From contig NZ_JAUSVF010000001.1 of the NCBI RefSeq assembly GCF_030814475.1, forward strand, positions 3,416,001-3,480,000: 64,000 nucleotides of DNA, given 5' to 3'. The stretch is from Pararhizobium capsulatum DSM 1112 (lineage in GTDB: Bacteria; Pseudomonadota; Alphaproteobacteria; Rhizobiales; Rhizobiaceae). The translations under genes and the position numbers were made by a program. This document shows, one piece after another, positions 3,168 to 42,286 of this stretch. Under the pieces are notes generated by a model. It was not told where the DNA came from. It made no database searches and was given only the letters and a program-made list of their open reading frames with translations. The number at the start of each line of letters is the position of its first letter. Within the stretch, counting starts at the first letter, position 1.

Positions 3168-4142
3168 ATGACTGCCCGTCACACCAAAGTTCTCATCATC
3201 GGCTCCGGCCCGGCCGGCTACACAGCTGCGATCTATTCGGCGCGTGCCATGCTCAACCCGGTGCTCATCGCCGGCATGGAACAGGGCGGCCAGCTGATGA
3301 TCACCACGGATGTGGAAAACTATCCCGGTTATGCCGATCCGGTCCAGGGTCCGTGGATGATGGAGCAGATGCTGAAGCAGGCGCAGCATGTTGGCGCCGA
3401 GATCGTCAACGATCTCGTCACCAGCGTCGATTTCTCCGTGCGCCCCTTCAAGCTGACCACCGACAGCGGCACCGACTGGACGGCCGACGTCGTCGTCATC
3501 GCCACCGGCGCCAAGGCGAAGTGGCTGGGCATCGAGACGGAACATACCTTCCAGGGTTTTGGCGTGTCGGCCTGCGCCACCTGTGACGGCTTCTTCTATC
3601 GCAACAAGGACGTGATCGTCGTTGGTGGTGGCAACTCCGCTGTTGAGGAGGCCCTCTATCTCTCCAACCTCGCAAAGACCGTGACCGTCGTTCACCGCCG
3701 CGACAGCTTCCGTTCGGAAAAGATCCTGCAGGAACGCCTGTTCGCCAAGGAAAACGTCAAGGTGCTCTGGGACCACGAGGTCACCGAATATCTGGGCACG
3801 CCACCCAAGCCGCCGATGCCGGCCTCGGTCAACGGCGTCAAACTGCGCAACACCAAGACCGGTGCGACCAGCGACATGCCGATCGATGGCGTCTTCGTGG
3901 CCATCGGCCATGCGCCGGCCGTCGAGCTTTTCAAGGACCAGCTGCGCCTGAAACCGAACGGTTACCTCTGGACCGCACCGGATTCGACCGCGACCAATAT
4001 TCCCGGCGTTTTTGCTGCAGGCGACGTCACCGACGACATCTACCGGCAGGCGATTACCGCCGCCGGCATGGGCTGCATGGCGGCCCTCGAGGCGGAAAAG
4101 TTTCTGGCGGGCCACATGCCTGTCGCAATTGCAGCCGAATAG
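3168..4142 (+). CDS. trxB: Thioredoxin-disulfide reductase
   Basis: 324 residues, the usual size. It reduces thioredoxin with NADPH through FAD in the cytoplasm. Visible features are the FAD-binding GSGPAG near residue 12, the redox-active CATC at 136-139, an NADPH-binding GGGNSAVEEA near 158, and the C-terminal FAD motif GVFAAGDVTDD. ATG at 3168 has AGGA ten bases upstream. A perfect 9-bp hairpin without a T-run lies between it and lsrB. trxB followed by lsrB is conserved in Rhizobiaceae and fits the oxidative-stress role of LsrB. Confidence 0.97.
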   Translation: MTARHTKVLIIGSGPAGYTAAIYSARAMLNPVLIAGMEQGGQLMITTDVENYPGYADPVQGPWMMEQMLKQAQHVGAEIVNDLVTSVDFSVRPFKLTTDSGTDWTADVVVIATGAKAKWLGIETEHTFQGFGVSACATCDGFFYRNKDVIVVGGGNSAVEEALYLSNLAKTVTVVHRRDSFRSEKILQERLFAKENVKVLWDHEVTEYLGTPPKPPMPASVNGVKLRNTKTGATSDMPIDGVFVAIGHAPAVELFKDQLRLKPNGYLWTAPDSTATNIPGVFAAGDVTDDIYRQAITAAGMGCMAALEAEKFLAGHMPVAIAAE

Positions 4143-4155
4143 AAGCTGCGAATAA

Positions 4156-4178
4156 CCGAAGCGGATCAACCGCTTCGG
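4156..4178 (+). other. Perfect hairpin between trxB and lsrB
   Basis: CCGAAGCGG (4156-4164) pairs with CCGCTTCGG (4170-4178) around ATCAA. There is no T-run, so it is not a standard terminator. It may stabilise the trxB 3' end or reduce readthrough into lsrB. Confidence 0.5.
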
Positions 4179-4239
4179 CACGGGAACAGACAATTGAGCT
4201 CCCCGGCGGAACGAGGCACCGTTTCCGCCGAGGGCGTAT

Positions 4240-5148
4240 ATGGGGGAAAGCATGCCGCTAGACTGGGATAAACTGCGTATTTTTCATGCGGCAGCTGAGG
4301 CGGGTTCATTCACCCATGCGGCAGACAAGCTCCATCTTTCCCAATCGGCCATCAGTCGACAGGTCTCCTCGCTCGAGCAGGATGTCGGCCTGAAGCTGTT
4401 TCACCGCCACGCGCGCGGCCTGATCCTCACCGAGCAGGGCGAAATTCTCTATCGCACCGCCCATGAAGTCCTCATGAAACTTGAAAGCGTCAAGGTGCAA
4501 CTCACCGAGACGACCGACAAGCCGAGCGGCAAGCTGCGCATCACCACCACCGTCGGCCTCGGCCAGGGCTGGTTGACGGACAAGGTACAGGAATTCCTGT
4601 CGCTCTATCCCGACATGCAGGTTCAGCTGATCCTCGACAACGAGGAGCTGGACGTGAACATGCGCCATGCCGATTGCGCCATTCGCCTGCGCCAGCCGCA
4701 GCAATCGGACCTCATTCAGCGCAAGCTCTTTACCGTGCACATGCACGTTTACGCCGCGCCGTCCTACATCAACAAATACGGCGAACCGCAGTCGATCGAG
4801 GATCTGGACAACCACCGGATTATCACCTTCGGCGAACCGGCGCCGAACTATCTTCTCGACGTCAACTGGCTGGAAATCGCAGGGCGAGAATCGGACAATC
4901 CCCGCCCCTCGCACCTGCAAATCAACAGCCAGACCTCGATCAAGCGTGCCTGTTTGCTCGGCATCGGTATTGCCATGATGCCCGACTATATTGTCGGCCG
5001 CGATCCGGGCCTGATCCAGCTGCCCATCGGCGCCGACATCCCCTCGTTCGATACCTATTTCTGCTATCCGGACGAGATGAAGAACGCCGCCAAGCTGAAG
5101 GTCTTCCGCGATTTCATCGTCGCCAAGGCCAGAAACTGGAACTTCTGA
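4240..5148 (+). CDS. lsrB: LysR-type regulator LsrB/VtlR
   Basis: 302 residues: LysR helix-turn-helix (WDKLRIFHAAAEAGSFTHAA to about residue 65) and a periplasmic-binding-like effector domain. Two starts are possible: ATG 4240 or ATG 4252, the latter with GGGGGA at ideal spacing. Counting from 4240 puts cysteines at 146, 238 and 275; as I recall, published LsrB numbering uses Cys146 and Cys238 as redox-sensing residues, which favours the longer form. The family (LsrB in Sinorhizobium, VtlR in Brucella/Agrobacterium) controls LPS genes, oxidative-stress response and AbcR small RNAs. The AbcR genes lie immediately downstream on the same strand. Confidence 0.88.
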   Translation: MGESMPLDWDKLRIFHAAAEAGSFTHAADKLHLSQSAISRQVSSLEQDVGLKLFHRHARGLILTEQGEILYRTAHEVLMKLESVKVQLTETTDKPSGKLRITTTVGLGQGWLTDKVQEFLSLYPDMQVQLILDNEELDVNMRHADCAIRLRQPQQSDLIQRKLFTVHMHVYAAPSYINKYGEPQSIEDLDNHRIITFGEPAPNYLLDVNWLEIAGRESDNPRPSHLQINSQTSIKRACLLGIGIAMMPDYIVGRDPGLIQLPIGADIPSFDTYFCYPDEMKNAAKLKVFRDFIVAKARNWNF

Positions 5149-5970: not shown

Positions 5971-6133
5971 CTCAAGTCTCCCTGTTTCGCTCGCGTTGGG
6001 CGAGCCGCCGTTGGTGGCGACCGCCAAGTTCTCCTTGGTCAACAAACTATGGCAGACGAGTTGAGAGACAACCGGGGCGGCGGAATTTCATGAAATGCTC
6101 TGCCCGGCTCGCAGATTTTTTTAATAGCAAGCA

Positions 6134-6162
6134 TTGAAAATTTACCAACGCGCGCCATATTA
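6134..6162 (+). promoter_or_regulatory. Predicted promoter of the second AbcR-type sRNA
   Basis: TTGAAA (6134-6139), a 17-base spacer and ATATTA (6157-6162) precede the proposed start at 6168 (AGCTGAGGCAC, matching AGCTGATGCAC of copy 1). It is closer to a sigma-70 consensus than the copy 1 promoter. Confidence 0.55.
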
Positions 6163-6167
6163 GAGAT

Positions 6168-6284
6168 AGCTGAGGCACATGGTGGTCTTCTCCTCCCGGT
6201 ATCCACCGCCGCAGCTGTTCCCCTCTGGAGGTTTTAACCTTCACACCTAGATGGCCCCCAACTCCGTTGCGGGGCTCTTTTTTT
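6168..6284 (+). ncRNA. abcR2: AbcR-type (alpha-r15) small RNA, copy 2
   Basis: A predicted 117-nt paralogue of the RNA at 5355-5476, with the same three-hairpin layout: GGTGG/CCACC near 6181-6207, the identical CCTCTGGAGG hairpin, and a terminator (GGCCCC/GGGGCT, then seven T). Outside the shared 24-base core the two copies differ clearly in the loop of hairpin 1 and in the terminator stem, which suggests separate target sets or regulation. The size matches reported AbcR lengths of about 110-120 nt. It lies 98 bases ahead of the arsR-type gene. Confidence 0.82.
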
Positions 6285-6342
6285 GCCTGCATCCCAAAAA
6301 ATCGGAACACGATACCTTTAAAATCGCGATCTTCCGATCTAT

Positions 6343-6370
6343 GTATCGGTATATCGGGATTTAACGATAC
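6343..6370 (+). promoter_or_regulatory. Possible operator of the ArsR-type regulator
   Basis: GTATCG (6343-6348) and CGATAC (6365-6370) form an inverted repeat, and TATCGG is repeated directly inside (6344 and 6352). The site ends 12 bases before the arsR-type start, as expected for autorepression, but the arms are short. Confidence 0.35.
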
Positions 6371-6381
6371 AGAGTTTCGAG

Positions 6382-6675
6382 ATGGACAGAGACGATATTC
6401 TGAAAGCGCTTTCCCACCCCATGCGGATGGAGATTCTTTCCTGGCTGAAGGAGCCGGAAGCGCATTTCAAAAACCAAGAGCATCCGCTCGACATGGGTGT
6501 CTGCGCCAGCCAGTTTGAACGCTGCGGCCTGTCGCAATCCACTGTTTCCGGCCATCTCGCCACCCTGCAGCGCGCCGGTCTGGTAACGACCCGGCGCGTC
6601 GGGCAGTGGATTTTCTACAAAAGGAACGAGGAGACCATCAAGGCGTTCCTGAAAGACATCGGCGAGGCGCTTTAG
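6382..6675 (+). CDS. ArsR/SmtB family transcriptional regulator
   Basis: 97 residues: a single winged helix-turn-helix beginning LKALSHPMRMEILSWLKEPE, recognition helix in GLSQSTVSGHLATLQRAGLV, and the beta-wing TTRRVGQWIFYKR. Two cysteines (MGVCASQFERCG) lie just before the recognition helix and could sense electrophiles or metal; the classical ELCVCDL metal motif is absent. It lies 69 bases before an old yellow enzyme gene, so a redox or electrophile-responsive repressor of that gene is likely. An arsR-type gene flanks the AbcR locus in Sinorhizobium as well. Confidence 0.85.
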   Translation: MDRDDILKALSHPMRMEILSWLKEPEAHFKNQEHPLDMGVCASQFERCGLSQSTVSGHLATLQRAGLVTTRRVGQWIFYKRNEETIKAFLKDIGEAL

Positions 6676-8537: not shown

Positions 8538-9698
8538 CTACGCCGCCAACTCCCTGCCGACCAAACGCCGTGGCGCGAGCGCTTTGACACAGAACAGCGC
8601 GTAGACGATCAGCGGCAGGCAGACGAGATAAGAGATGCGGATGCCCGCATGCTCGGCAACAAAGCCCAGCAGCGGCGGCGCAAGAAAGAAGACAATAAAC
8701 GTCACCTGTCCAAGAGCCGCGACATTGAGATGCGATGCGCGATCGGTGCGCTGCGCCGCCGCGGAGACGGCAAGCGGGTAGACCGCACTGCAACCTGCTC
8801 CCATGGCCGCAAAGCCGAACAGCGCGATGTAGGCATGCGGCGCGAGCCACACGGCGGCAAGGCCGAAGGCTGCCAGAAGAAGAAGCCCCGCGGCAACGTT
8901 TCGGGCACCAAAACGATCGACCACCGGATCGGCAAAAAGCCGCATCATCGCCATGAAGAATGTGAAGAGTGTCAAACCAAGCCCGCCGATGAATGGCTCA
9001 ACCGCGAATACATCGCGCATATAGATTGCAGACCAGTCGATCCCTGCCCCCTCCACCAGGAACGCAGCGACGCCGATGATGCAGAGCGGTAGCAGTCCCA
9101 TTGTCGGCACGGCAAATAGAGGCGCTGCCGCATCCTCCTGCAACTCCCGCGCTGGCGCATTGCGGATGCCGGTGATCACAAATCCACCAATGACGAAGAC
9201 GATGGCGACCGTCACCGCCATGTGCGTCTGCATGGAGATATCGGCCTGTCGGATGCCGGATGCGATCAGCGCGGTAACGAAGAAGCCGAGGCTCCAGAAG
9301 CCATGGGCACGGTTCATCATGCCATGCCCGGCCTGTGCCTCAATGCGGTCGATCTCGACATTGAGGTTGATTTCGAGCGCACCAGCCAGAAGCCCGGCGC
9401 AAAAGAAGGCTGCAAAGACTGCAGGTGCGGCACCCAGCCACGGAATGAGCGCGAGTATGGCGCTGATCCCCAGAACGGTGATAAAGGCTGTCGTTCTTGC
9501 ACCCAACCGCGCAATCAGATGCGAGGAGAAGGTCAGCGAGATCAACGCACCGATTGACATGCCGATCAGCGTCAACCCCAGCTCGGACTTGTTGACGCCA
9601 AGCGCCACCTGCAGGTCGGGCATGCGGGCAAGCAAGGCCCCCAGCGACACGGCAAAGAGAAAAAAGCAGGCATAGATTCGGTGTTGCGGCGCAAGCAT
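8538..9698 (-). CDS. MFS transporter
   Basis: 386 residues from ATG 9698 (GAGGAG upstream); an open frame to 9857 adds a doubtful tail. About twelve hydrophobic segments are visible, with the MFS loop motif between helices 2 and 3 reduced to HLIARLGARTTAF. Opening RIYACFFLFAVSLGALLARMPDLQ resembles the FucP/YbjJ branch, so sugar or metabolite transport across the inner membrane is plausible. A perfect 12-bp palindrome lies just upstream, suggesting TetR-type control, although no TetR gene is adjacent. Confidence 0.85.
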   Translation of the reverse strand: MLAPQHRIYACFFLFAVSLGALLARMPDLQVALGVNKSELGLTLIGMSIGALISLTFSSHLIARLGARTTAFITVLGISAILALIPWLGAAPAVFAAFFCAGLLAGALEINLNVEIDRIEAQAGHGMMNRAHGFWSLGFFVTALIASGIRQADISMQTHMAVTVAIVFVIGGFVITGIRNAPARELQEDAAAPLFAVPTMGLLPLCIIGVAAFLVEGAGIDWSAIYMRDVFAVEPFIGGLGLTLFTFFMAMMRLFADPVVDRFGARNVAAGLLLLAAFGLAAVWLAPHAYIALFGFAAMGAGCSAVYPLAVSAAAQRTDRASHLNVAALGQVTFIVFFLAPPLLGFVAEHAGIRISYLVCLPLIVYALFCVKALAPRRLVGRELAA

Positions 9699-9711
9699 GG
9701 GTGTCTCCTCG

Positions 9712-9723
9712 TAGAACGTTCTA
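9712..9723. promoter_or_regulatory. Palindromic operator in front of the MFS gene
   Basis: TAGAACGTTCTA is a perfect 12-bp palindrome, 13 bases upstream of the MFS start codon and just before its ribosome binding site. The form is typical of TetR-family operators. Confidence 0.45.
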
Positions 9724-9741
9724 TAGAAGGAGTCGCCGCAT

Positions 9742-9776
9742 AAAAAAACTGCCGGGGCGATGCCACCGGCAGTTTT
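9742..9776 (-). terminator. Minus-strand rho-independent terminator downstream of aspC
   Basis: A perfect 11-bp stem (9745-9755 with 9766-9776). Read on the minus strand it is followed by seven T. It isolates the aminotransferase transcript from the MFS gene. Confidence 0.8.
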
Positions 9777-9845
9777 CGCTACAAATTCAGCAGTATGTCG
9801 CGCAAAAGTGCGCAGCGGTTTTGCGACAACGACATGTGCAGCAAA

Positions 9846-9886
9846 AATCTGCAGCACAGCGCAATTGAAAGATTGCGCTGTGCTGC
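9846..9886 (-). terminator. Long hairpin directly after the aminotransferase stop
   Basis: A perfect 15-bp stem (9851-9865 with 9872-9886), six-base loop TGAAAG. Short T-runs flank both sides (five T on each strand), so it may work in either direction. It lies 7 bases past the aspC stop, making two hairpins in series with the one at 9742-9776. Confidence 0.7.
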
Positions 9887-9893
9887 AATCTTT

Positions 9894-11545
<1,652 letters not shown>

Positions 11546-12367
11546 ATGTTTCTTGATGAACAACTGATCCGGACACAGACGAGCCGGCGCGATCTGCGCC
11601 TTGGCGTCGCGCTTGCGGCACTGAGCCTGAGTTTTCTGATGCTCGCCGGGCTCTTCGCCCGCGCTCTCGCCGAAACGCCGCAGCCGCGGGAAGCAGCACC
11701 CGGCCTCGTGCGGCCCAACGACATGGGCACCGGCGCCCTGCTCTTTCCCTCGCCACAGCCCGGCTATTTCGTCGAGGCGCTGCGGCTGGCGACGGACGTC
11801 GAGATTGATGTGTCAGGTCCCATCATGCGCACCCGTGTCACCCAGCGCTTCCAGAACCCGTCGAAGGGCTGGGTGGAAGTCTTTCCGCTTCCCGACGATT
11901 CCGCCGTCGATGTCATGAAGATGCAGATCGGCGACCGCTTCATCGAAGGCGAGATCAAGCCGCGCGAAGAGGCCCGTCAGATTTACGAAGACGCGAAAGC
12001 CGAGGGCAAGAAGACCGCACGGCTGGAGGTGCCGCTCAACCTGCCGGCCGGCTGGCACTTCGACACGGTGTTTGGCGAGGAAGGCTCAGGTGGGGGCACC
12101 GAGCACGCCGCAGCAATGCCCTCCCCTGAAGCGGAGATGGTTGCAGACCTCATAGCCGCTGCCCCGACCGCACGCGCCGCCAGCATGATCGCCCAGGCGG
12201 CCAAGCCTGTAGCCTTGCCGCAGACCACAACCCTTGCCGACCGGCATATCCTGATCGGCCTGATGCTGATCGCCATCGCCGCGATGGCGGCCATCGCCTT
12301 CGGCCTGTGGCGCTGGCAGATGCAGGGTCTTTTCACCGCGAAAGCTGAATCCCGCCATGAGCCTTGA
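11546..12367 (+). CDS. VIT-domain sortase-substrate protein with internal deletion
   Basis: 273 residues. The N-terminus has a membrane signal (about 20-42), then the first part of a VIT domain (GWVEVFPLPDDSAVDVMKMQ, REEARQIYEDAKAEGKK). After that (near base 12015) the sequence jumps to LEVPLNLPAGWHFDTVFGE, which in full-length marine-proteobacterial sortase targets lies near the C-terminus. The rest of VIT and the whole von Willebrand A domain (roughly 400 residues) are missing, in frame. The C-terminus keeps a sorting signal, LPQTTTLA, a hydrophobic helix and a basic tail. It overlaps the sortase gene by 11 bases. It could be a remnant or a working mini-substrate. Confidence 0.75.
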   Translation: MFLDEQLIRTQTSRRDLRLGVALAALSLSFLMLAGLFARALAETPQPREAAPGLVRPNDMGTGALLFPSPQPGYFVEALRLATDVEIDVSGPIMRTRVTQRFQNPSKGWVEVFPLPDDSAVDVMKMQIGDRFIEGEIKPREEARQIYEDAKAEGKKTARLEVPLNLPAGWHFDTVFGEEGSGGGTEHAAAMPSPEAEMVADLIAAAPTARAASMIAQAAKPVALPQTTTLADRHILIGLMLIAIAAMAAIAFGLWRWQMQGLFTAKAESRHEP

Positions 12368-13072
12368 GAGATCGAACGAAAGGCGCGCCGGGTTTCTGGC
12401 GCGCCTCAGTGCCGGCGAAACCGTCGTCCTGGCCATCATCGCCATGATCGCCCTTGCCGGAACGCTTCTGATCGGCAAAGGCCTCTACATGAAGGCCAAG
12501 GCGGAACTCTCGCAGGTTCTGCTGCAACGCAGCTTTGCCGCCGAGCTGCGCGGCGAGACAGGGGCGAAACCCTGGCCCTGGGCCGACTTCACCACCGAAG
12601 CGGAGATCACAGCGCCGCGCCTTGGGAAAAGGCTGTGGTACTCGCCGGGGCCAGCGGCGAAGCCGTTGCCTTTGGTCCCGCCCATCTTTCCAACACGCCG
12701 CAGCCGGGCGACAGCGGCACCGCCGTCATTGCCGCCCATCGTGATACATATTTCCGCTGGCTGAAGGACGTGAAGCCCGGCGACCTGCTCCTCATCACCC
12801 GCAAGGACGGCCGGGAGCTTACTTTCCGCGCAGGGCCGGGCCGGATCGCCCGCTGGGACGAAAGTGGCATCAATGCCAATGCCGCGGGCCATCATCTCGC
12901 ACTCGCGACTTGCTGGCCTTTTGATGCAACAGCGCGAGGCCCGATGCGTTACATCGTGAGCGCTGAGCTGATGGAAGACGCCTCGCTTGCAGCGACCGAT
13001 GCAGGCGGCGCAGGGCAAGAACTCCCGGAAAAGTCGTCTGACAACGCACTTGCCCAAAATTCGGTCAACTGA
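12357..13072 (+). pseudogene. Class-D-like (marine proteobacterial) sortase, frameshifted
   Basis: The first frame (12357 to about 12629) encodes a membrane anchor (residues 24-46) and the start of the sortase barrel, ending in ITAPRLGK. Similarity then continues one frame back from about 12629: AVVLAGASGEAV, catalytic His in AAHRDTYF, catalytic Cys in LATCWPF and Arg in GPMRYIV. The break lies in GGGAAAAGG at 12624-12632; one extra G (giving LGEKAVVLAG) would restore a full reading frame. The sortase would cleave the LPQT signal of the preceding protein at the inner membrane. A sequencing error in the homopolymer is possible. Confidence 0.8.
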
Positions 13073-13113
13073 TACTTGACGGCCTCGATCCGCTACCGTC
13101 AGGACTTCCCATC

Positions 13114-14013
13114 GTGAATCGCATTCAGGCCAACCTGCTTCTGCTTCTGTCGGGCGCCATCTGGGGTGCCGGTTTCGTCGCGCAATCCACTGCGATGGGT
13201 CAGGTCGGCCCTTTTTGGTTCACAGGCATGAAATTCGCACTGGCAGCGCTGGTCGTCGCGCCGCTCGCCTTTTTCGAGACACGCAGGGCAACAACCGCGA
13301 TGCCGAAAAACAGTATCCGCAATTTCACGATCATTGGGCTTGCCCTGTTCTGCGGCGCCATCACGCAACAAATCGGCCTCTTGACGACCAGTGTCACCAA
13401 CTCCGGTTTTCTCACCGGGCTCTATGTCGTGTTCGTGCCGTTGCTGACCGTCATCTTCCTGCGCCGCCAGCCGCACTGGATCATCTGGCCGGCGGCAGCC
13501 ATGGCGATGTTTGGTATTTTCCTGCTCAGCGGCGGCTCGCTCGCGGGCCTCAATAGTGGCGACCTCATGACCATCGTCTGCGCGGTCTTCTGGGCCATTC
13601 AGGTGATGCTGGTCGGGATTTTTGCAGTCAGCACCGGCCGTCCCATGATGTTGTCGCTGGTGCAATTTTCCACCTGCGCCTTCGTCAGCTCCATCCTCGG
13701 CTCCGTCATGGAACCGATCAGTTTCACAGCGATCAACAACGTCCTGCCGGAAATCCTCTATGCCGGTATCCTGTCGAGCGGTGTCGCCTTCACCTGCCAG
13801 GTTGTCGCTCAACGCTACACGACAGCCCCGCAGGCGGCGATCTTCCTGTCCAGCGAAGCGCTCTTCGCCGCGCTCTTTGGAATGCTGCTTCTCGGTGAAA
13901 CGATTACGCCGATCGGCTATGTCGGCTGCGGCATCATCTTCGCCGCCATGATGTTGGTGGAGCTCGTTCCCGAGCTGACGAAGCGCAATGCCGAAATGAA
14001 GGCCTCGACCTAA
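13114..14013 (+). CDS. EamA/DMT family transporter
   Basis: 299 residues from GTG 13114, with AGGA about ten bases upstream. Ten hydrophobic segments form two EamA repeats; typical signatures are LLLLSGAIWGAGFVAQ at the N-terminus and the second repeat ending EALFAALFGMLLLGETITP. Inner-membrane exporter of metabolites, substrate unknown. The gene stands alone; a long AT-rich gap follows. Confidence 0.85.
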   Translation: MNRIQANLLLLLSGAIWGAGFVAQSTAMGQVGPFWFTGMKFALAALVVAPLAFFETRRATTAMPKNSIRNFTIIGLALFCGAITQQIGLLTTSVTNSGFLTGLYVVFVPLLTVIFLRRQPHWIIWPAAAMAMFGIFLLSGGSLAGLNSGDLMTIVCAVFWAIQVMLVGIFAVSTGRPMMLSLVQFSTCAFVSSILGSVMEPISFTAINNVLPEILYAGILSSGVAFTCQVVAQRYTTAPQAAIFLSSEALFAALFGMLLLGETITPIGYVGCGIIFAAMMLVELVPELTKRNAEMKAST

Positions 14014-14553
14014 AACGGCCTGATCCCGGCAGGAACAATAACGTCTCCACCTGCCGAAAACGTGCTGTTCCAAATCGAGACAAGCAGCTCGGCCGTTAAC
14101 GTATCGTTTACGGATTGTCTCGGCGATTCAGGTATCAATATCAGAAACGACTGCGACATTTCCTGACGCAGACGCCTAAATTTTTCTCACAATCAGACAA
14201 AAACAAGCGATTTCAATAGCTTGCAATGCAACCTGAGAAAGTCTTCTTTTTTCAGCAATTGATCTCATTTTGCGCAAAGTGAAAAGGCGCATTTGTTTCG
14301 TCAAACTTTTGCTTGCCAATTCAAAATAAACGCATCAATCTTACTGTGTTCGGGCAATTTACGGACACGGGAAGACCTTGAATAAAGCGCGCCGGAGACG
14401 CCAAATGTTCCGGGCAGTCGGGCAAGATAAGCTTTGTGTTGACTGGCTGCAATTACAGGACCCTTTCCTCCTCGATAACTGCCTGCCCCACGCCCTATGG
14501 GCAAAATCGTAATGCTGCCCGCCGCTTCGGGCAGAGGAAAAAGGACCTGACGC
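14014..14553. other. Long intergenic region upstream of the cold-shock gene
   Basis: 540 bases without a supported gene; open frames on the minus strand (14301-14838) are antisense to the cold-shock gene and not convincing. Bases 14160-14340 are AT-rich with several T-runs. A hairpin CTGCCCG/CGGGCAG (14515-14521 with 14528-14534) sits right before the ribosome binding site of the cold-shock gene, so a long structured 5' leader is likely, as in cspA mRNAs. Confidence 0.5.
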
Positions 14554-14769
14554 ATGGCCGAAACTGGCATTGTTAAATTCTTCAACACCGATAAGGGCTT
14601 TGGTTTCATCAAGCCCGACAATGGTGGGGCTGATATCTTCGTGCATATCTCCGCCGTACAGGCTTCCGGCCTGAACGGACTGTCTGAAAACCAGAAAGTC
14701 AGCTTCGACACGGAACCGGATCGCCGCGGCAAAGGCCCCAAAGCGGTCAATCTGCAGATTTCCGGCTGA
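14554..14769 (+). CDS. Cold-shock protein, CspA family
   Basis: 71 residues, a single OB-fold cold-shock domain that binds single-stranded RNA. RNP1 is KGFGFIK (within [12 protein letters not shown]) and RNP2 is [18 protein letters not shown] lies upstream of ATG 14554. A terminator follows, so it is monocistronic. Rhizobiaceae carry several such paralogues, so no specific name is given. Confidence 0.95.
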
Positions 14770-14800
14770 TCGCAAAATCTGCACACGATTCAAGTTGAGG

Positions 14801-14824
14801 CCCGGCACTGTTGCCGGGTTTTTT
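14801..14824 (+). terminator. Terminator of the cold-shock gene
   Basis: CCCGGCA (14801-14807) pairs with TGCCGGG (14812-14818), followed by six T. Confidence 0.88.
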
Positions 14825-14910
14825 CGTTCAGGCTGCATTCAGCCTCATGGTCTTAACCTCTTGTCATCATGAAGACCGGAAATCCTCCGGTTATCAACGG
14901 GACCACGACC

Positions 14911-15354
14911 ATGAAGAAGATGATCAAAGCTGCTGTGCTCGGCCTTGCAACGTTCGCTACGGTGCTGCCGGCTCTTGCCCCCGCCCATGCTGGCGACTGG
15001 GACCGGCGCTATTATCGTCGTGACTACCACCACGGCCACCACAACGATGGCGACGCCGTTGCTCTGGGCGCACTCGGCCTTGCGACCGGCCTCATTGTAG
15101 GCGGCGCGATCGCCAGCCAGCCGCGCTATCAGGAACGGGTCTACGTCGATCCGGAACCCGAATATTACGAGCCTGCACCGGTCTATCGTCGCCCGCGCCC
15201 CGTCGTCGTCGATAATGGCTATGGATACGGCGCAATCGAGCCTTGGAGCTCCGGCTGGTACGACTATTGCGAACGCCGCTATCGTTCCTTCAACCCGCGC
15301 ACCGGCACTTTCCGCGGCTATGACGGCCGCGACTACTTCTGCCAGGCTGGCTAA
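14911..15354 (+). CDS. BA14K-family secreted protein
   Basis: 147 residues from ATG 14911. A signal peptide (KKMIKAAVLGLATF to ALAPAHA) is cleaved before GDWDRRYYRR. The middle has a His-rich stretch and a hydrophobic Gly-rich segment (LGLATGLIVGGAIA). The C-terminus has the BA14K signature WYDYCERRYRSFNPRTGTF ending in DYFCQAG, with two cysteines likely forming a disulfide. The family is common in Rhizobiales; Brucella BA14K is an immunoreactive protein with lectin-like activity. The exact role here is unknown. A bidirectional terminator follows. Confidence 0.88.
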   Translation: MKKMIKAAVLGLATFATVLPALAPAHAGDWDRRYYRRDYHHGHHNDGDAVALGALGLATGLIVGGAIASQPRYQERVYVDPEPEYYEPAPVYRRPRPVVVDNGYGYGAIEPWSSGWYDYCERRYRSFNPRTGTFRGYDGRDYFCQAG

Positions 15355-15414
15355 GGGATGTCGCGTCAGAACTTAAATCGCCGCACTCTTTGAGAATTTC
15401 CGGTTGAACCCGAC

Positions 15415-15450
15415 AAAAGGCCCGCGTCCAGGAATGGAGCGGGCCTTTTT
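15415..15450. terminator. Bidirectional terminator between convergent genes
   Basis: A perfect 11-bp stem (AAAAGGCCCGC, 15415-15425, with GCGGGCCTTTT, 15439-15449) with A-run before and T-run after. It serves the BA14K gene and the convergent hydrolase gene. Confidence 0.85.
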
Positions 15451-15466
15451 CTGTTTGTACTCTGCC

Positions 15467-16108
15467 TCAAAGACCGCGCAGATAAGGATTGGTGCGGCGT
15501 TCTTCGCCAATCTGCCCGCCAGGGCCATGACCGCAAATGAAGCCCACGCCATCCCCAAGCGGCAGGATCTTGTCACGAATGGAATCGAGAAGCTGCTGAT
15601 GATTGCCGCCGGGCAGATCCGTGCGCCCTATCGAACCATGAAAGAGCACATCTCCGACATGAGCAAAGCCCTGGATGCGATTATAGTAGACAACATGACC
15701 CGGCGCGTGACCCGGGCAATGTAGAACCTCGAATATATGCTCGCCGAAGGAAACAGTATCACCATCTTCCAGCCAGCGATCGGGCAGCACGTTCTCGACT
15801 TTCATTGCCAATCCAAAACGCTCTGCCTGACTTTCCAGCCGCTCAAGCAGTGGCAGATCGTCCTTGTGCGGACCAATGATCTCCAGACCGAGCGTGTCCT
15901 TGAGTTCCTTGGCGCCGCCGGCATGGTCGATGTGGCCGTGCGTCAGCCAGATCGCTTTCAAGGTGATGCCGTTTTCCTTGATCGTCTGCAAAATGACATC
16001 GACATCCCCGCCAGGATCGACAATGACACCTTCCTTCGTGTCGGTGTCGAAAAGCACCGTACAGTTCTGCTGGAAATGGGTAACCGGAATAATGCCCGCC
16101 TGTAACAT
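15467..16108 (-). CDS. Metallo-beta-lactamase fold hydrolase (YcbL/glyoxalase II-like)
   Basis: 213 residues from ATG 16108 (GAGGCAGG upstream). The zinc-binding motif THGHIDHAGG appears near residue 56, further ligands in HCPGHAPGH, HVGDVLF and the final CGHGPGG. It is close to the YcbL branch of glyoxalase II, which hydrolyses S-lactoylglutathione-type thioesters in the cytoplasm; the substrate is not certain. Confidence 0.88.
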   Translation of the reverse strand: MLQAGIIPVTHFQQNCTVLFDTDTKEGVIVDPGGDVDVILQTIKENGITLKAIWLTHGHIDHAGGAKELKDTLGLEIIGPHKDDLPLLERLESQAERFGLAMKVENVLPDRWLEDGDTVSFGEHIFEVLHCPGHAPGHVVYYNRIQGFAHVGDVLFHGSIGRTDLPGGNHQQLLDSIRDKILPLGDGVGFICGHGPGGQIGEERRTNPYLRGL

Positions 16109-26462: not shown

Positions 26463-27614
26463 ATGGCACTGCACTTTGGCCAGGACGAATTTACCGCGCG
26501 ATTGGAACGGCTGAAAGCCTCCATGAAGGAGGAGAAGCTCGACGCGCTTCTGCTCTTCGCCCAGGAAAGCATGTACTGGCTCACCGGCTATGACACCTTC
26601 GGCTATTGCTTCTTCCAGACGCTGGTGGTCAAGGCCGATGGCTCAATGGTGCTGCTGACCCGTTCCGCCGACCTTCGGCAAGCGCGGCATACCTCGAACA
26701 TCGAGCGCATCGAGATCTGGGTGGATAGGGTAAATGCCGATCCGACGATGGATCTCAAGAACCTGCTGAGCGATCTCGATCTCCTCGGCATGCGCATCGG
26801 CGTTGAATATGACACCCATGGCATGACCGGCCGCGTTGCACGGTTGCTCGACCAGCAGCTTACCAGCTTCGGTCAGCTCATCGGCGCATCTGGCATGGTC
26901 GGCAAGCTTCGGCTGATAAAGAGCCAGGCCGAAATTGCCTATGTCGAGAAGGCAGCAAGCCTTGCCGACGATGCCCTCGACGCTGCCCTGCCCCTGATCC
27001 GTCCCGGCGGCAGCGAGGCCGATATTCTGGCCGCTATGCAGGGCGCCATCTTTGCCGGCGGCGGCGACTATCCGGCCAACGAGTTCGTCATCGGCTCGGG
27101 TGCCGACGCGCTTCTCTGCCGCTACAAGGCCGGCCGGCGCACGCTCGATGCCCAGGACCAGTTGACTCTGGAGTGGGCGGGCGTCAGCGCCCACTATCAT
27201 GCAGCCATGATGCGCACCGTTGTCATCGGAGAAACGACGAACCGGCACCGCGAACTCTACAGCGCCTGCCGGGAAACCATCCAGGCTGTGGAAATGGTGC
27301 TGCGGCCGGGCAATACCTTCGGCACGGTCTTCGAGATCCATGCCAAGATTATGGATGAGCGCGGGCTGGCCCGCCATCGTCTCAATGCCTGCGGTTATTC
27401 GCTGGGTGCCCGCTTCTCGCCCTCATGGATGGAACAGCAGATGTTCCACATCGGCAACCCGCAGGAAATCCTGCCCGACATGTCGCTCTTCCTGCACATG
27501 ATCATCATGGACAGCGAGAGTGGAACGGCCATGACACTCGGGCAGACCTACATCACCACCGACGGCGCGCCGAGACCGCTGTCACGGTACGGACTGGACT
27601 TCATCACTGCTTAG
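26463..27614 (+). CDS. Creatinase/ectoine hydrolase-like M24 family protein without metal ligands
   Basis: 383 residues with the two-domain pita-bread layout: an N-terminal creatinase domain (SMYWLTGYDTFGYCFFQ) and a C-terminal M24 domain. The family's five metal ligands are not conserved: the first Asp is Glu (TLEWAG), the second is Ala/Met (HYHAAMMRTV), and the expected C-terminal Glu region reads DMSLFLHMIIMD. GGDYPANEFVIGSGADA and CGYSLGARFSPSW resemble ectoine hydrolase DoeA and creatinase, which also work without metal. A C-N hydrolase of small amidines or cyclic compounds is the best guess. Confidence 0.75.
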   Translation: MALHFGQDEFTARLERLKASMKEEKLDALLLFAQESMYWLTGYDTFGYCFFQTLVVKADGSMVLLTRSADLRQARHTSNIERIEIWVDRVNADPTMDLKNLLSDLDLLGMRIGVEYDTHGMTGRVARLLDQQLTSFGQLIGASGMVGKLRLIKSQAEIAYVEKAASLADDALDAALPLIRPGGSEADILAAMQGAIFAGGGDYPANEFVIGSGADALLCRYKAGRRTLDAQDQLTLEWAGVSAHYHAAMMRTVVIGETTNRHRELYSACRETIQAVEMVLRPGNTFGTVFEIHAKIMDERGLARHRLNACGYSLGARFSPSWMEQQMFHIGNPQEILPDMSLFLHMIIMDSESGTAMTLGQTYITTDGAPRPLSRYGLDFITA

Positions 27615-27696
27615 GAAAATTGCCGTATCGTTTTGGCGAGCAAGGTGAAGGTGGGGGCCTTCGCGCTCCTCCTCGCGACGAATGAACGGTGGAACG

Positions 27697-28563
27697 ATGC
27701 ACAAGCTGATCATTGCCATTACCGGCCTTGCCCTGCTCGCCGGCTGCAACTCGACCGATGCCCTGATCCCCCAGGTCGATGTCGGCGAAGGAACGTTTCG
27801 TTCCCCGCCGGTCAACCAGGCCGACCTCGACACCATGTCCTCGCAACCGGCCTATGTGCCGCCCCAGGAAACGGCATCCGTGCAGAGCGCGCCGCTTGAT
27901 GCGCAGCCGGACTACCGGCAGCCGCAGCCCGACACGAGTTTTGCACAGGGCGACGTCGACTACACTGATCCCGCCGGATCCCTGGAAGCACAGGCAAGCC
28001 GGCTTTCCCAGGGAGATGTTCCCGCGCAGGAACGCCAGATCGCCCGTAGCACGCCTCAGCTGACGCAGACGGCAGACAACGCGCCTGCCGAAAACGAACA
28101 GCCCGCTGAACAACAAGTGCCTCCCTTGCAGGCCGCCGCCGAGCAGCCGCGGCTGGAAAAGCCGCAACAATCCGCAGCCATCGCTCCCAAGGGCGAGGCC
28201 AACAGCATTCGCTTCCTTCCGATCATCGGCGCGCCGGTCGCCGCCGTGACCTCGCTTTCCAAACAGCTCGGTGCCGATGCGCGTGCACACGGCTTGACGA
28301 TCAAGAGTTCGTCGGACGCCAGCAGCCAGCACATCCTCAAGGGCTATTTCTCGGCCCTGAAGGACGGCGGCAAGACGACCGTGGTCTATATCTGGGATGT
28401 TCTTGATGGCAGCGGTAACCGGCTGCACCGCATTCAGGGGCAGGACACGGTCGATGCCACGGCGGCGGACCCTTGGGCGGCAGTGCCACCGGAGACGATG
28501 CAGGCCATTGCCAGCAAGTCGATCGAGACCTACCTCGCCTGGGCCCGCGCCAACGCGGGTTAG
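27697..28563 (+). CDS. Lipoprotein of unknown function
   Basis: 288 residues from ATG 27697 (GGTGGA upstream). A lipoprotein signal, KLIIAITGLALLAGC, is followed by a long Pro/Gln-rich low-complexity region (about 30-155) that would span the periplasm. A folded C-terminal domain contains RFLPIIGAPVAAVTSLSKQL, HILKGYFSALKDGG and VYIWDVLDGSGNRLHRIQG, giving a beta-sheet core. No family is assigned with confidence. It may be an outer-membrane-facing tether; the neighbouring lgt may act on it. Confidence 0.8.
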   Translation: MHKLIIAITGLALLAGCNSTDALIPQVDVGEGTFRSPPVNQADLDTMSSQPAYVPPQETASVQSAPLDAQPDYRQPQPDTSFAQGDVDYTDPAGSLEAQASRLSQGDVPAQERQIARSTPQLTQTADNAPAENEQPAEQQVPPLQAAAEQPRLEKPQQSAAIAPKGEANSIRFLPIIGAPVAAVTSLSKQLGADARAHGLTIKSSSDASSQHILKGYFSALKDGGKTTVVYIWDVLDGSGNRLHRIQGQDTVDATAADPWAAVPPETMQAIASKSIETYLAWARANAG

Positions 28564-37644: not shown

Positions 37645-40032
37645 ATGCATACGATGATGCATTCTGTCGAGAACCGCTTCATTGCGATCGTCTGCGGCGC
37701 CGTCCTGGTTTTTGTCGCGCCCCTCATCGTTCTGTTTCTCACACTGTCATCGGAACGTGTCGCACGCGAACGTCTCACCAACACGCAGGTGCTGATGAAG
37801 ACCGGTGCGGAGGCACTGGGAAAACCGCTTTGGGATTTCGATACCGACGGCGTCAAGCAGATTGCCCGCGCGCTGATCGCCGGTGAAAACGTGCTGGCGG
37901 TCCATGTCCGCGACAGTTCCGGAACGATTTCCGTTCGCATTCCCGACGGGCCGCTCAATGTTTCCGAAACCGACTACACGGTCCTTTCAAGCGATATTCA
38001 GTACAGCTCGCAGGACGGAGAACGCCGCGTCGGCTCTGTCGAGATCTGGGTCGAAGAACCGGGGCTGATTTCCCGTTTCAGCCGAGACGAAATCAGCGTC
38101 TTCCTCATTCTGGTTGTTGCCGTCACCATCGTCTTCGCAGCTGCGATCTTCAGCAATCGCATCACCGTCATCAAGCCGCTGATGCGTTTGACGGCCGCCA
38201 TCGAGGCGACCCGCCGCCTGGGCTCCCGTCATCAGGTAGACTGGAACTCGGACGACGAGATGGGCACGCTCGCCCAGAACTTCAATGAAATGCAGACGCG
38301 CCTTGAGCAGGAACAATCCGAGCTGAAGCTGGCACATGGTCGTGCATCGAATATCTACAACAAGACGCCGGCTATGCTCTTTTCGCTGGATACCGCCAAC
38401 GACATTACTGCCGTCAGCGATTACTGGCTGGTCGCCACGGGATACCGCCGCGAAGAGGTCATCGGCCGCGCCTTTACCGATTTCGTCGATGAACATTGGC
38501 ATGAAACCTACAAGGCTCGCCGCGTCAGCCCGGGAAATAGCGGCATCTGCGAAGTGACCGTGCCGTTTCGCAAGTCGAACGGCGAGATGATGATCGTGCT
38601 GATCCTGGAAATGCGCAACTTCGTCAGCGACGATGTCGGTGGCGTTTCGCTTTCGGTGATGACCGATGTTACTGCGCTCAAGCAGGCAGAGAGCCGCAAC
38701 CATGCGCAGGCGATCACCGACCACCTGACCGGGCTGCTCAATCGCCAGGGTTTTGAAGCCGCACTTGACGAGGGCATCAAGGATGTCGATGCAAAAGCCA
38801 TGCAGCTCGCCTGCATCTTCATCGACCTCGACCGCTTCAAGTGGATCAACGACAATTTCGGCCACGCGGCCGGTGACGAAGTGCTGCGTCAGGTCGTTGC
38901 CCGCATCAAGACGACGCTGAGACCCGGCGACGCCATGGCCCGCCTTGGCGGCGACGAGTTCGCGATCCTGGTCAGCGCCGAAAGCGTGTCGGATCTTGCG
39001 AGCGAAATCGGCGAGCGGATTTGCGATTGCCTGAATGAGCAGATCATCGTCGAGGGTGCGGACCTTTCCGTCACCGCCAGCATCGGTATCGCTCTTTATC
39101 CCGACCATGCGGCCAATGCCGCCGATCTGCTGCTGAAGTCGGACATGGCCATGTATACGCGCAAGCGCGATGGCAAGAACGGCATGCTGGTGTTCGACAA
39201 TTCCATGCTCGACACGGCGCGCGAGCGTCACGAGATCGAGCAGTATATCGAAGCCGGCCTCAAGGAAGACTGGTTCGAAGCCTATCTGCAGCCGATCGTC
39301 AGCCTTGGCGATGGGCGCATTGCCGGCTTCGAAGCCCTGATGCGGCTCAATCACCCTGAAAAGGGCATTCTGGCGCCAGGCAAGATCATCGGTATCGCCG
39401 AAGAAACCGGGACCATCGGCCGGATCGGCGATCGTGTGCTGGAAAAGGCGATCTCGCACCTCGCCCGCATCAGCAAGCTCGAGGGAACGGAAGCCACCTA
39501 TCTTGCCGTCAACTTCTCCCCACTGCAGTTCGAACTCACCCTGCCCCACAAGCTGGCAGCCCTGCTGCTCAAGCACCATATCGCCCCAAGCCGGATCGTC
39601 GTGGAAATCACCGAGGCGGTGCTGATGCTCGACAACCCGGATGTCCACGCCGTCCTGAAACAGCTCAGCGAATTCGGCTGCCGCATTGCGCTCGATGATT
39701 TCGGCACCGGCTACTCGTCCCTGAGCTATCTCAACCGTTTCCCTGTCAATATCGTCAAGGTCGACCAGTCCTTCACCCGGTCACTCAGCACAGGCACCAA
39801 TGACGTTCGCCGCAAGAGCCGCATGCTGATCAAGGGCATTCGCACCATCTCGCATCAGATGGGATGCTCCGTGGTTGCCGAAGGCATCGAGACGACGGAA
39901 CAATGGGAATTCCTGCGCAAGCTTGGCGTCGATTACGGCCAGGGGTTTCTGTTCAGCAAACCCATGCCGATCGACAACATGCTGACGATGCTTGAAATGA
40001 ATTCCGAAGCGAAGAGCAACACGATCGCCTGA
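37645..40032 (+). CDS. Membrane GGDEF-EAL protein with HAMP and PAS domains
   Basis: 795 residues: TM1 about 13-35, periplasmic sensor about 36-150, TM2 about 152-172, HAMP about 175-225, PAS about 240-350 (YNKTPAMLFSLDTANDITAV), GGDEF about 365-520 with intact RLGGDEF, EAL about 535-780 with FEALMRL, NFSPLQF, DDFGTGYSSL and AEGIETTEQW. Both enzyme domains look active. The next gene, 16 bases on, encodes a periplasmic binding protein that could feed signal to the sensor domain. The pair interrupts rplY-pth. Confidence 0.92.
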   Translation: MHTMMHSVENRFIAIVCGAVLVFVAPLIVLFLTLSSERVARERLTNTQVLMKTGAEALGKPLWDFDTDGVKQIARALIAGENVLAVHVRDSSGTISVRIPDGPLNVSETDYTVLSSDIQYSSQDGERRVGSVEIWVEEPGLISRFSRDEISVFLILVVAVTIVFAAAIFSNRITVIKPLMRLTAAIEATRRLGSRHQVDWNSDDEMGTLAQNFNEMQTRLEQEQSELKLAHGRASNIYNKTPAMLFSLDTANDITAVSDYWLVATGYRREEVIGRAFTDFVDEHWHETYKARRVSPGNSGICEVTVPFRKSNGEMMIVLILEMRNFVSDDVGGVSLSVMTDVTALKQAESRNHAQAITDHLTGLLNRQGFEAALDEGIKDVDAKAMQLACIFIDLDRFKWINDNFGHAAGDEVLRQVVARIKTTLRPGDAMARLGGDEFAILVSAESVSDLASEIGERICDCLNEQIIVEGADLSVTASIGIALYPDHAANAADLLLKSDMAMYTRKRDGKNGMLVFDNSMLDTARERHEIEQYIEAGLKEDWFEAYLQPIVSLGDGRIAGFEALMRLNHPEKGILAPGKIIGIAEETGTIGRIGDRVLEKAISHLARISKLEGTEATYLAVNFSPLQFELTLPHKLAALLLKHHIAPSRIVVEITEAVLMLDNPDVHAVLKQLSEFGCRIALDDFGTGYSSLSYLNRFPVNIVKVDQSFTRSLSTGTNDVRRKSRMLIKGIRTISHQMGCSVVAEGIETTEQWEFLRKLGVDYGQGFLFSKPMPIDNMLTMLEMNSEAKSNTIA

Positions 40033-40048
40033 CGGGCGGAGGGCATGC

Positions 40049-40765
40049 ATGAAACGCATATTTTTCGCGCTCGCATTGAGCTTTCCGGCTATCGCGCAGG
40101 CAGAACCACTGAAACTGCTTACAGAAGAATATCCGCCCTACAATTTCACCAGCAACGGCGCCATCACCGGCGCCTCGGTGGAACAGGTGCGATTGATGAT
40201 GAAGGCGATCGACGCGCCCTTCGAGCTTGAAATACTGCCCTGGGCTCGTGCTTTTGCCCGCGCCAAAAACGAAGACAGCACCTGCGTCTTCACGACGGGT
40301 CATGACGACGAGCGCGACAAGCGGTTCAAGTGGATCGAGCCGCTGCTCATCGACAAGATGGTGATGGTTCGCAAGGCCGGCTCCGGCATTGATCCTCTCA
40401 CCATCGAAGCTGCCAAGCGCTTTACCATCGGCACCCAGCGCGACGATTTTTCCTATAGCTTCCTGACTGCCAATGAGTTTCCAAAGATCGATCTCGCTGC
40501 CGATATGGAAGCAACGCTGAAGAAGCTGCTCAACAACCGCATCGACCTGATGATGACATCGGAAAAGACATTCGAAGCCATGAAGGCTCAAGGCAAGGGC
40601 GTGGAGCCGGCCCTCGTGCTCGGCGGCAAGCGTTATGGCCTCGCCTGCAATCTCTCGGTTCCGGACGCGCTCATCGGCAAGATGCAGAAAGCCCTCGAGG
40701 ATCTGATCGCAGATGGCACACAGGACCGGATCTCCGCCGACTACGGTCTACGTCCCAACCGGTGA
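40049..40765 (+). CDS. Periplasmic solute-binding protein (SBP_bac_3 type)
   Basis: 238 residues: signal peptide (KRIFFALALSFPAIAQA), then an amino-acid-binding-type fold (LKLLTEEYPPYNFTSNGAIT, WARAFARAKNE, and the hinge NRIDLMMTSEKTFEAM). No ABC permease is nearby. Such stand-alone binding proteins next to a c-di-GMP enzyme often act as ligand receptors of the sensor domain. 16 bases after the GGDEF-EAL gene, so co-transcribed. Confidence 0.85.
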   Translation: MKRIFFALALSFPAIAQAEPLKLLTEEYPPYNFTSNGAITGASVEQVRLMMKAIDAPFELEILPWARAFARAKNEDSTCVFTTGHDDERDKRFKWIEPLLIDKMVMVRKAGSGIDPLTIEAAKRFTIGTQRDDFSYSFLTANEFPKIDLAADMEATLKKLLNNRIDLMMTSEKTFEAMKAQGKGVEPALVLGGKRYGLACNLSVPDALIGKMQKALEDLIADGTQDRISADYGLRPNR

Positions 40766-41771: not shown

Positions 41772-42083
41772 CTACTCCTCCGGCTCTGTCGTAAACATCA
41801 GCGGGAAACCCGCCTCCTTGCCGAGATCGGTCGCTTCCTTCGCCTTGGTCTCGGCAATATCCTGGGCGCAGATGACAATCACGCACGAGCCGAGCTTGTG
41901 AGCGGTCATCATGATGCGATAACCGGCTTCCTCGCTCATGTGGAAGACAGCCTTCAATACCAGCGTCACGAATTCGCGTGGCGTGTAATCGTCATTGAGC
42001 AAGATCACCTTGTGAAGCTTGGGCCGCTCCAGCTTGGGCTTGATCTTCAATTTCGGTTTGAGATCGGTTTCGTTGTCGCTCAT
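41772..42083 (-). CDS. clpS2: ClpS adaptor (ClpS2 type)
   Basis: 103 residues from ATG 42083. ClpS passes N-degron substrates to ClpAP. The core has LHKVILLNDDYTPREFVTLV with the substrate-pocket DD and the ClpA-binding tail of helix 1. The C-terminus ending AKEATDLGKEAGFPLMFTTE matches the ClpS2 paralogue of Agrobacterium as I recall it; there is no clpA next door, which also fits ClpS2. Acidic tail EPEE. Confidence 0.88.
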   Translation of the reverse strand: MSDNETDLKPKLKIKPKLERPKLHKVILLNDDYTPREFVTLVLKAVFHMSEEAGYRIMMTAHKLGSCVIVICAQDIAETKAKEATDLGKEAGFPLMFTTEPEE

Positions 42084-42286
42084 CGTGGAGGCACCCATGG
42101 ATGAAGAACTGGCGGACGAACACGCGAAAGTCTGCCCCGATCTCACTCTGATCGCAAGAGTGGGCCCATCACAAGGTGCGTGAAATGCCCATTCGTCCAA
42201 ACTTTCCGGCCACCACCCTTGACCTTGCCATGTCCTATCCCCCATAGGCAGGTCAAAGATTTTCCAGAATAGACGGACGACAGGCC

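Follow-up and report, generated by a model that had tools for sequence, protein, structure and literature searches.

A frame-split sortase and a shortened substrate in Pararhizobium capsulatum as a probable early step towards a membrane-anchor pair that recurs in Rhizobiaceae

A class GN sortase and its single VIT/VWA-type substrate, encoded side by side in the 64,000-nucleotide stretch of Pararhizobium capsulatum DSM 1112 DNA analysed here (the window), are probably at an early step towards a conserved pair of membrane anchors, a change that recurs in Rhizobiaceae. Most of the ectodomain of the window substrate has been excised in frame, and, if the base calls are right, the catalytic domain of the sortase has been lost from the reading frame. 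The substrate retains its N-terminal segment and its C-terminal anchor, the sortase retains its N-terminal anchor, and the two genes still overlap in the usual order downstream of a putative regulatory element. Elsewhere in the family the same two genes have become a mini-substrate and a micro-sortase, with membrane parts under purifying selection. This wider pattern, in which sortase pairs have repeatedly shrunk to membrane anchors under selection, most deserves to be pursued. The features of the locus are as follows.

9894..11096, minus strand: aspC, an aspartate aminotransferase-like gene (name sequence-derived), the landmark adjoining the operon site in 26 loci of the genus and 26 further loci
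11436..11496, plus strand: 61-nt conserved upstream element, with a ChvI-like GCC-N8-GTC-N8-GCC at 11463-11487 (consensus match)
11546..12367, plus strand: miniature sortase substrate, 273 aa, an in-frame deletion form of TIGR03788 (ORF, profile, alignment)
11546..11671, plus strand: N-terminal segment of the substrate, signal/hydrophobic stretch, codons 1-42 (hydrophobic window, residues 19-37)
11792..12028, plus strand: truncated VIT domain (PF08487 positions 4-85 of 111), lacking GTY (Pfam, alignment)
12011..12037, plus strand: deletion junction region KTARLE/VPL, about 1494 nt absent relative to G010 (local alignments; break placed approximately)
12215..12229, plus strand: LPQTT sorting motif, retained (sequence)
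12236..12367, plus strand: C-terminal membrane anchor and tail of the substrate, ADRHILIG...LWRWQ... (hydrophobic window, residues 235-253)
12357..12764, plus strand: shortened sortase ORF of 135 aa, with the N-terminal membrane anchor and part of the domain (hydrophobic residues 22-40; profile)
12624..12632, plus strand: GGGAAAAGG, site of the sortase reading-frame shift (sequence, alignment)
12635..13072, plus strand: out-of-frame rest of the sortase catalytic domain, with AAHRD, TCWP and RGPMRY (profile, motifs)

The two genes sit between aspC and a DMT-type transporter gene (names sequence-derived); aspC, CspA and MBL flank the operon site in all 26 genus loci and in the 26 further loci compared. 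The sortase starts 11 nt before the end of the substrate and is encoded beside its only target, since the whole genome holds one TIGR03788 match and a search at E 0.001 returned no further match to TIGR03784 or TIGR03788. An RNA element at the operon was rejected, as an Rfam search of positions 9000-15500 (E up to 0.1) returned only two matches, which lay outside the operon and scored less than their gathering thresholds. One, at 9780-9914, was a weak match to the Brucella sRNA CI27 (RF02600; 35 bits, gathering score 59.8); the other, at 14513-14826 over a cold-shock-type gene, was a weak match to the cspA thermoregulator (RF01766; 27.2 bits, gathering score 78).

The substrate matched only positions 1-83 of the 629 in the NCBIfam profile TIGR03788, with 118 bits against a cut-off of 551.65, and only positions 4-85 of the Pfam VIT model (82 of 111), so the deletion has taken the VWA region together with part of the VIT domain. 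It consequently lacks the score and the VIT-plus-VWA content of a TIGR03788 member, and it has the LPxT-type motif, membrane segment and tail that such a member carries at its C-terminus. Aligned with the intact 776-aa substrate of G010, residues 1-161 correspond to 1-166 and residues 150-273 to 653-776 (77% identity), leaving a single in-frame gap of about 498 residues. The coordinates of the junction come from these local alignments, as the DNA alignment misplaced part of the substrate near the large gap. Two smaller in-frame gaps relative to G010 remove 2 residues from the signal segment and 3 (GTY) from the VIT motif WVEGTYVFPLP, which is complete in G010 and G002. The sequence-only reading of this DNA had described an in-frame, VWA-removing loss of roughly 400 residues; its nature was as described, but its size was underestimated. 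The same reading credited the substrate with a signal, the LPQT sorting signal and a basic tail; the signal segment and LPQTT are indeed kept, as is a C-terminal anchor, which ends in LWRWQ at 12305-12319, followed by a tail. Codons 1-42 are homologous to the segment that is constrained in reduced Sinorhizobium relatives (dN/dS 0.07-0.09 in classes A, B and F, see below).

A database search with the 273-aa form, covering proteins of similar length, yielded no second copy, the sole identical protein being the window's own; a full-length substrate in a sister strain would have fallen outside this length range. A different internal-deletion form of the substrate (P0002, 258 aa) was found on six contigs, and the right-hand end of its deletion (VPLNLPAGW) lies at nearly the same point as that of the window, a possible hot spot. 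A 133-aa reduced substrate on a 1152-bp contig (P0022) resembles forms from the window's genus and reads LPQAAT at the sorting site.

The sortase is split between two frames. The first covers positions 2-74 of TIGR03784 and the second positions 64-174, with 63.7 and 118.4 bits, respectively, and neither reaches the cut-off of 158.25. The motifs with the catalytic His, Cys and Arg (AAHRD at 12731-12745, TCWP at 12908-12919, RGPMRY at 12935-12952) all lie in the second frame, separated from the N-terminal anchor with which they share a frame in an intact TIGR03784 sortase. Residues 1-108 of the first frame are 78% identical to the intact sortase of G010. The break is a shift of one base in a short G/A run at GGGAAAAGG, as had been reported from the sequence, and this run differs in the intact sortases of G010 and G002. 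The assembly is rated 100% complete in 7 contigs. Alignment with full-length homologues (TIGR03788 and TIGR03784, G010 and G002) bore out both the deletion and the split, and the full-length substrate genes of the relatives do not contain the window's junction, which, in the part of this question that was testable, speaks against a normal variant.

The pattern goes beyond chance. Among 26 genomes of the genus, 21 had a substrate and a sortase above the cut-offs (the same 21 for each), no sortase match was obtained in G001, G012, G016 and G021, and the window's genome alone had a split sortase. In one of the 21, G014, the substrate frame is broken. Across 394 genomes sampled from the family the sortase was matched in 60, above the cut-off in 58, and only in the window was the match divided over two frames. 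We also took ORFs of 150 codons or more from the corresponding stretches of G002 and G010 and aligned them to the window. Of the 52 ORFs placed from G002 and the 54 from G010, four each aligned in more than one frame, and the sortase was the only one common to both. The two-frame alignments seen with one relative only (window 26990-28560, 41772-43387, 14324-14849, 3779-5145, 6116-6614 and 39804-40762) are possible frameshifts, joined neighbours or non-coding frames.

The remaining coding sequence of the window pair resembles that of its nearest relatives with both genes whole, G010 and G002, to which the aligned pieces of the locus are 79-86% identical at the DNA level. When the two parts of the substrate and the sortase before and after the shift were compared with G002 or G010, dN/dS was 0.09-0.19, similar to 0.11-0.23 for the same four pieces between G002 and G010. 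Beyond the shift the value was 0.10 against G002 and 0.09 against G010, as under normal constraint. Residues changed at positions where all other sequences agree were counted for the same pieces (substrate parts, then sortase before and after the shift): 2/93, 4/57, 0/51 and 2/78 in the window, 2/93, 2/55, 4/55 and 4/80 in G002, and 1/92, 0/53, 0/51 and 2/78 in G010. The window was thus the most changed of the three only in the C-terminal part of the substrate. Since constraint in these pieces is like that in the intact relatives, both lesions look recent, and the sortase shift would be either very recent or a read error. The assemblies of G014 and G016 (completeness 78 and 87) have flanking genes in several frames, so read errors do occur in such data. 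The lesions of the window are too recent for selection on its own anchors to show.

In other Rhizobiaceae a mini-substrate of 65-160 aa and a micro-sortase of 59-95 aa (133 aa in one species), which is little beyond the sortase membrane anchor, adjoin aspC. Within the window's genus, G001, G016 and G021 have at the operon site an ORF of 143-150 aa that joins the substrate N-terminal segment to the C-terminal anchor without VIT, VWA or LPxT (dN/dS 0.39 overall and 0.18 in the anchor), directly followed by an ORF of 61-64 aa that holds the sortase N-terminal anchor and little more. A profile built from these three small substrates matched 38 of the 394 family genomes, many of them through full-length substrates. 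Reduced pairs were read next to aspC in 15 genomes outside the genus (leaving out G036, G082 and G383) in addition to these three. Weak profile matches in G036, G082, G117 and G383, which belong to other genera, may likewise be reduced substrates or sortase anchors. A second profile, built from 14 micro-sortases, matched 41 short database proteins (50-133 aa), including hypothetical proteins of Sinorhizobium fredii (one cluster, 100 contigs), S. americanum and S. sojae and the NGR234 protein NGR_c22780. The spacing between mini-substrate and micro-sortase was -11 to +5 nt at the 18 loci measured; as the genes overlap or nearly abut, the pair is probably co-translated. Hydropathy gave one span for the micro-sortase, with a short start that we place in the cytoplasm on the inferred orientation, and one or two spans for the mini-substrate.

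Different reduced forms have different junctions, and most have lost the sorting motif. Among 37 reduced substrates (35 genomes plus P0002 and P0022, leaving out the window and G429), LPxT was absent from the sorting site in 35, nine of which had lost the whole site, and 34 had no LPxT[AGT] in the last 90 residues. The remaining three were G070, with LPDTG off the sorting site, and G434 and P0002, which retain LPQT; the site reads LPQM in G426 and LPQA in P0022. The window pair shares with these loci the position beside aspC, the upstream element and, if the frameshift is real, a sortase anchor whose open frame contains no catalytic motifs, but it still has part of the VIT domain and LPQTT. 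A motif that is present in the window and mostly gone elsewhere is the order expected if sorting is lost first and the motif erodes later. In G012 both substrate and sortase have been lost outright while aspC and the DMT transporter remain, indicating that the anchor pair is not essential. A PQQ-dependent sugar dehydrogenase-like gene (name sequence-derived) takes the place of the pair there (contig C20, about 348000-349200).

Sinorhizobium (genus group g46) provided the largest set of reduced loci. The anchor profile matched all 33 genomes searched, nine of which had HRD and TCWP in the same ORF and 24 of which did not; in 24 of 24 reduced loci both the mini-substrate and the micro-sortase ORF were open. 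The sortases of G426, G434, G422 and G427 retain both ends, the anchor and the tail LTTGS(I/V)xR, which indicates that the catalytic domain was excised in frame. In G416 (S. chiapasense) a 133-aa sortase with an internal deletion keeps the Cys motif and has lost the His motif, and the signal segment and C-terminal anchor of its 70-aa substrate are fused into a single hydrophobic span. The substrate was cut to the N-terminal segment alone at 8 of the 24 loci, so that, with the G416 fusion, retention of its C-terminal anchor is not universal. A tree built on five flanking genes (3517 columns, with some genes missing in some genomes) placed the reduced Sinorhizobium in three positions: a large clade with support 96, the G426/G434 pair, and G416, which grouped with two full species in a clade of support 100. 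These three reductions, together with the window, the G001/G016/G021 clade and genus group g10 with g95, make six if reduction is irreversible. On the same premise the minimum is five, because the G001/G016/G021 clade and g10/g95 might share an origin, as is suggested by a linker motif (TG[AGS]I) present in both; the full-length G028 is placed between them by nodes supported at only 72 and 82. P0002 and P0022, further forms with no place in the tree, were left out of the count.

Selection on the anchors was estimated as pairwise NG86 dN/dS with bootstrapping over codons rather than with a codon-model test. Four of the eight sets comprise only two or three sequences, sequences within a set share history, and the genus-group sets of g46 overlap Sinorhizobium classes A, B and F. 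For the micro-sortase anchor core, dN/dS was 0.05 [0.01-0.14] in the genus of the window, 0.03 [0.00-0.08] in g95, 0.02 [0.00-0.05] in g10 and 0.15 [0.04-0.39] in four g46 genomes; a close g46 pair gave 0.00 with no usable interval. The Sinorhizobium classes gave 0.11 [0.04-0.25] (A), 0.22 [0.07-0.53] (B) and 0.09 [0.02-0.20] (F). Outside the core the micro-sortases drift more, with values of 0.12-1.37 and wide intervals, the highest in g10. In the mini-substrate the N-terminal segment was at 0.07, 0.09 and 0.07 in classes A, B and F, and the C-terminal anchor at 0.18, 0.04, 0.48 and 0.18 in four genus groups, 0.48 [0.21-0.82] being that of the four-genome g46 set. Intact Sinorhizobium sortases gave 0.09 for the core and 0.10 for the catalytic part. 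The sortase anchor therefore stays under purifying selection in the reduced lineages (0.02-0.22, compared with 0.09-0.29 in intact forms). Against this stands the intact Ensifer sortase (g72): constraint on its anchor core (0.29) is weaker than on its catalytic part (0.07) and weaker than in the reduced forms, which is unexpected if the anchor is the main selected part. Some of the low dN/dS may predate reduction if the reductions occurred separately after the species split; the architecture common to each class makes such separate events less likely.

The upstream element also persists at reduced loci. The window matches its consensus at 52 of 61 positions (27 in a reversed-sequence control), and scores were 36-58 at 35 full loci and 38-51 at 15 reduced ones, compared with 27, the control level, in G012, where the operon is lost, aspC is kept and the element is absent. 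Because the consensus was drawn from these same loci, the match scores alone are not independent evidence, while the contrast with G012 is. Three GYC repeats 11 nt apart (a GYC-N8 box) are present at all but two of the 52 loci, G003 and G012, whereas shuffling gave an expectation of 0.7. A passage of PMC9731502 gives N-GCC-N8-GCC as the ChvI consensus for S. meliloti and a different motif for Caulobacter. The window box, of the GCC-N8-GCC type, is one letter off this S. meliloti consensus, in the middle repeat, and we regard it as a ChvI-like candidate.

SMc01580 of S. meliloti appears to be the mini-substrate of this locus type, a link made via a published table rather than through its own sequence. 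SMc01578 is presumably the aspC homologue. The table (PMC6637203) pairs SMc01580, at 80% identity, with a protein of Ensifer adhaerens named "marine proteobacterial sortase target protein". ChvI binding was detected at three of 19 upstream regions tested, that of SMc01580 included, according to a summary of Chen et al. in PMC3687685. Passages in two papers report that SMc01580 is induced by acid at low pH (PMC10659215, PMC2651895), one of them also using it as a reporter of ExoS/ChvI signalling (PMC10659215), and a section of another lists it among genes changed without phosphatidylcholine (PMC8343143). For the adjacent-numbered smc01581, a preprint states direct control by ChvI and a response to the plant peptide NCR247 (PMC12486126). 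In the literature searched we found no paper linking SMc01580 to sortase loss.

The explanation that competes most directly with an early reduction is that the frameshift is a read or assembly error and that an active sortase still sorts a real miniature substrate; the sequence-only reading had given a read error with a miniature substrate as one of two alternatives. This would fit a shift of a single base in a short G/A run, the lack of relaxation beyond it (dN/dS 0.09-0.10), conserved residues changed there at a rate (2 of 78) no higher than in G002 (4 of 80) or G010 (2 of 78), the retained LPQTT, and the flanking genes in several frames in the less complete genus genomes G014 and G016. We nevertheless consider it somewhat unlikely, because the sortase alone was split against both relatives among 52 and 54 ORFs in a 100% complete assembly of 7 contigs, the substrate has lost its whole VWA region, and the sortase is also reduced at every other reduced locus read (leaving out the neighbours of P0002 and P0022). 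Plain pseudogenisation, in which the need for sorting has ended, both genes are breaking down and the small ORFs of other lineages are remnants yet to disappear, would account for two recent lesions in the window, for the joint disappearance of the catalytic domain and the substrate ectodomain, and for the absence of both genes in G012. It does not readily explain why the reduced ORFs stay open across species at mean dS of about 0.2-0.9 (0.09-0.17 in one close pair), including both ORFs at 24 of 24 reduced Sinorhizobium loci, why the sortase anchors have low dN/dS and mostly looser tails, or why the upstream element persists, and in our judgement it is quite improbable.

The other two explanations fare worse. 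If the small pair were ancestral and the long forms had arisen by insertion of the catalytic and VIT/VWA domains, small forms in several genera would be expected and are indeed seen, but the window form stands beside full-length relatives with a junction inside the VIT domain, junctions differ among reduced forms, G416 lies in a clade with full species, and the full-length members fit TIGR03784 and TIGR03788, families that are defined far outside this group; such an origin is extremely improbable. Some full-length sortase might be made by programmed frameshifting or transcriptional slippage on the short A run at GGGAAAAGG. The zero-frame codons there are GGG AAA AGG, which we take to be no canonical slippery heptamer, and the run differs in the intact G010 and G002; we judged this mechanism very unlikely on both grounds.

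An early step towards the anchor pair thus remains our preferred reading, and the original observation is real, with its framing as decay half right. Loss of the system fits as far as the transpeptidase function is concerned, but the usual endpoint is a small membrane pair rather than the loss of both genes. The substrate is miniature, as suggested, in a form that recurs in relatives, and the frameshift, which had been tied to that idea as an error, need not be one, although it may be. Given that relatives are reduced to a small membrane pair, the miniature substrate and the truncated sortase belong together as parts of a single change that recurs. Under this reading covalent sorting would be dispensable, and the anchors, with expression governed by the ExoS/ChvI envelope-stress system, would serve an additional inner-membrane function that needs no catalysis; in the window sorting would have been lost with both anchors still made. 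Repeated removal of catalysis, with the sortase anchor kept under selection, suggests that part of the value of the system may not lie in transpeptidation. By analogy with MgrB, the role could be modulation of an envelope sensor such as ExoS. That the sortase and substrate anchors form an enzyme-free functional unit of two small ChvI-controlled inner-membrane proteins, for example modulating the ExoS kinase or another envelope sensor, is a tentative proposal to which we give only a small chance. If it were true, full-length systems would carry that function too, and their catalytic half would have been discarded at least five times. It would bear on enzymes whose role a passage of PMC10581121 calls unknown in Gram-negative bacteria, class GN being poorly described. 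The anchor pair also offers a possible origin for SMc01580, and with it a laboratory strain in which the question could be tested.

A passage of Haft et al. (2011, PMC3237569) describes TIGR03784 as a class GN sortase in a dedicated Gram-negative system. The window resembles the TIGR03784/TIGR03788 system in gene order, N-terminal sortase anchor, catalytic motifs (out of frame), VIT start, LPQTT and C-terminal anchor, and differs from it in a substrate shorter by about 498 residues, a sortase in two frames, and scores below the cut-off for both. With SMc01580 it shares the sortase-target pairing seen in the excerpt of PMC6637203 and, across 50 of 52 loci, the upstream GYC-N8 repeats; unlike the window substrate, SMc01580 is called only a hypothetical (transmembrane) protein in the passages cited. 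The window substrate is far less reduced than the Sinorhizobium substrates read, SMc01580 being compared by description. The micro-sortase, as a single-span protein of 59-95 aa that may be ChvI-induced, recalls MgrB and other single-span proteins that feed back on kinases, as these are described in part of the literature, a likeness of possible working and not of sequence. A close parallel is the truncated "sortase family protein" of S. chiapasense (P0047, the G416 sequence), which likewise keeps its anchor beside a reduced substrate and has lost the catalytic His region in frame; unlike the window sortase it retains TCWP in the same frame, and its substrate is only 70 aa long.
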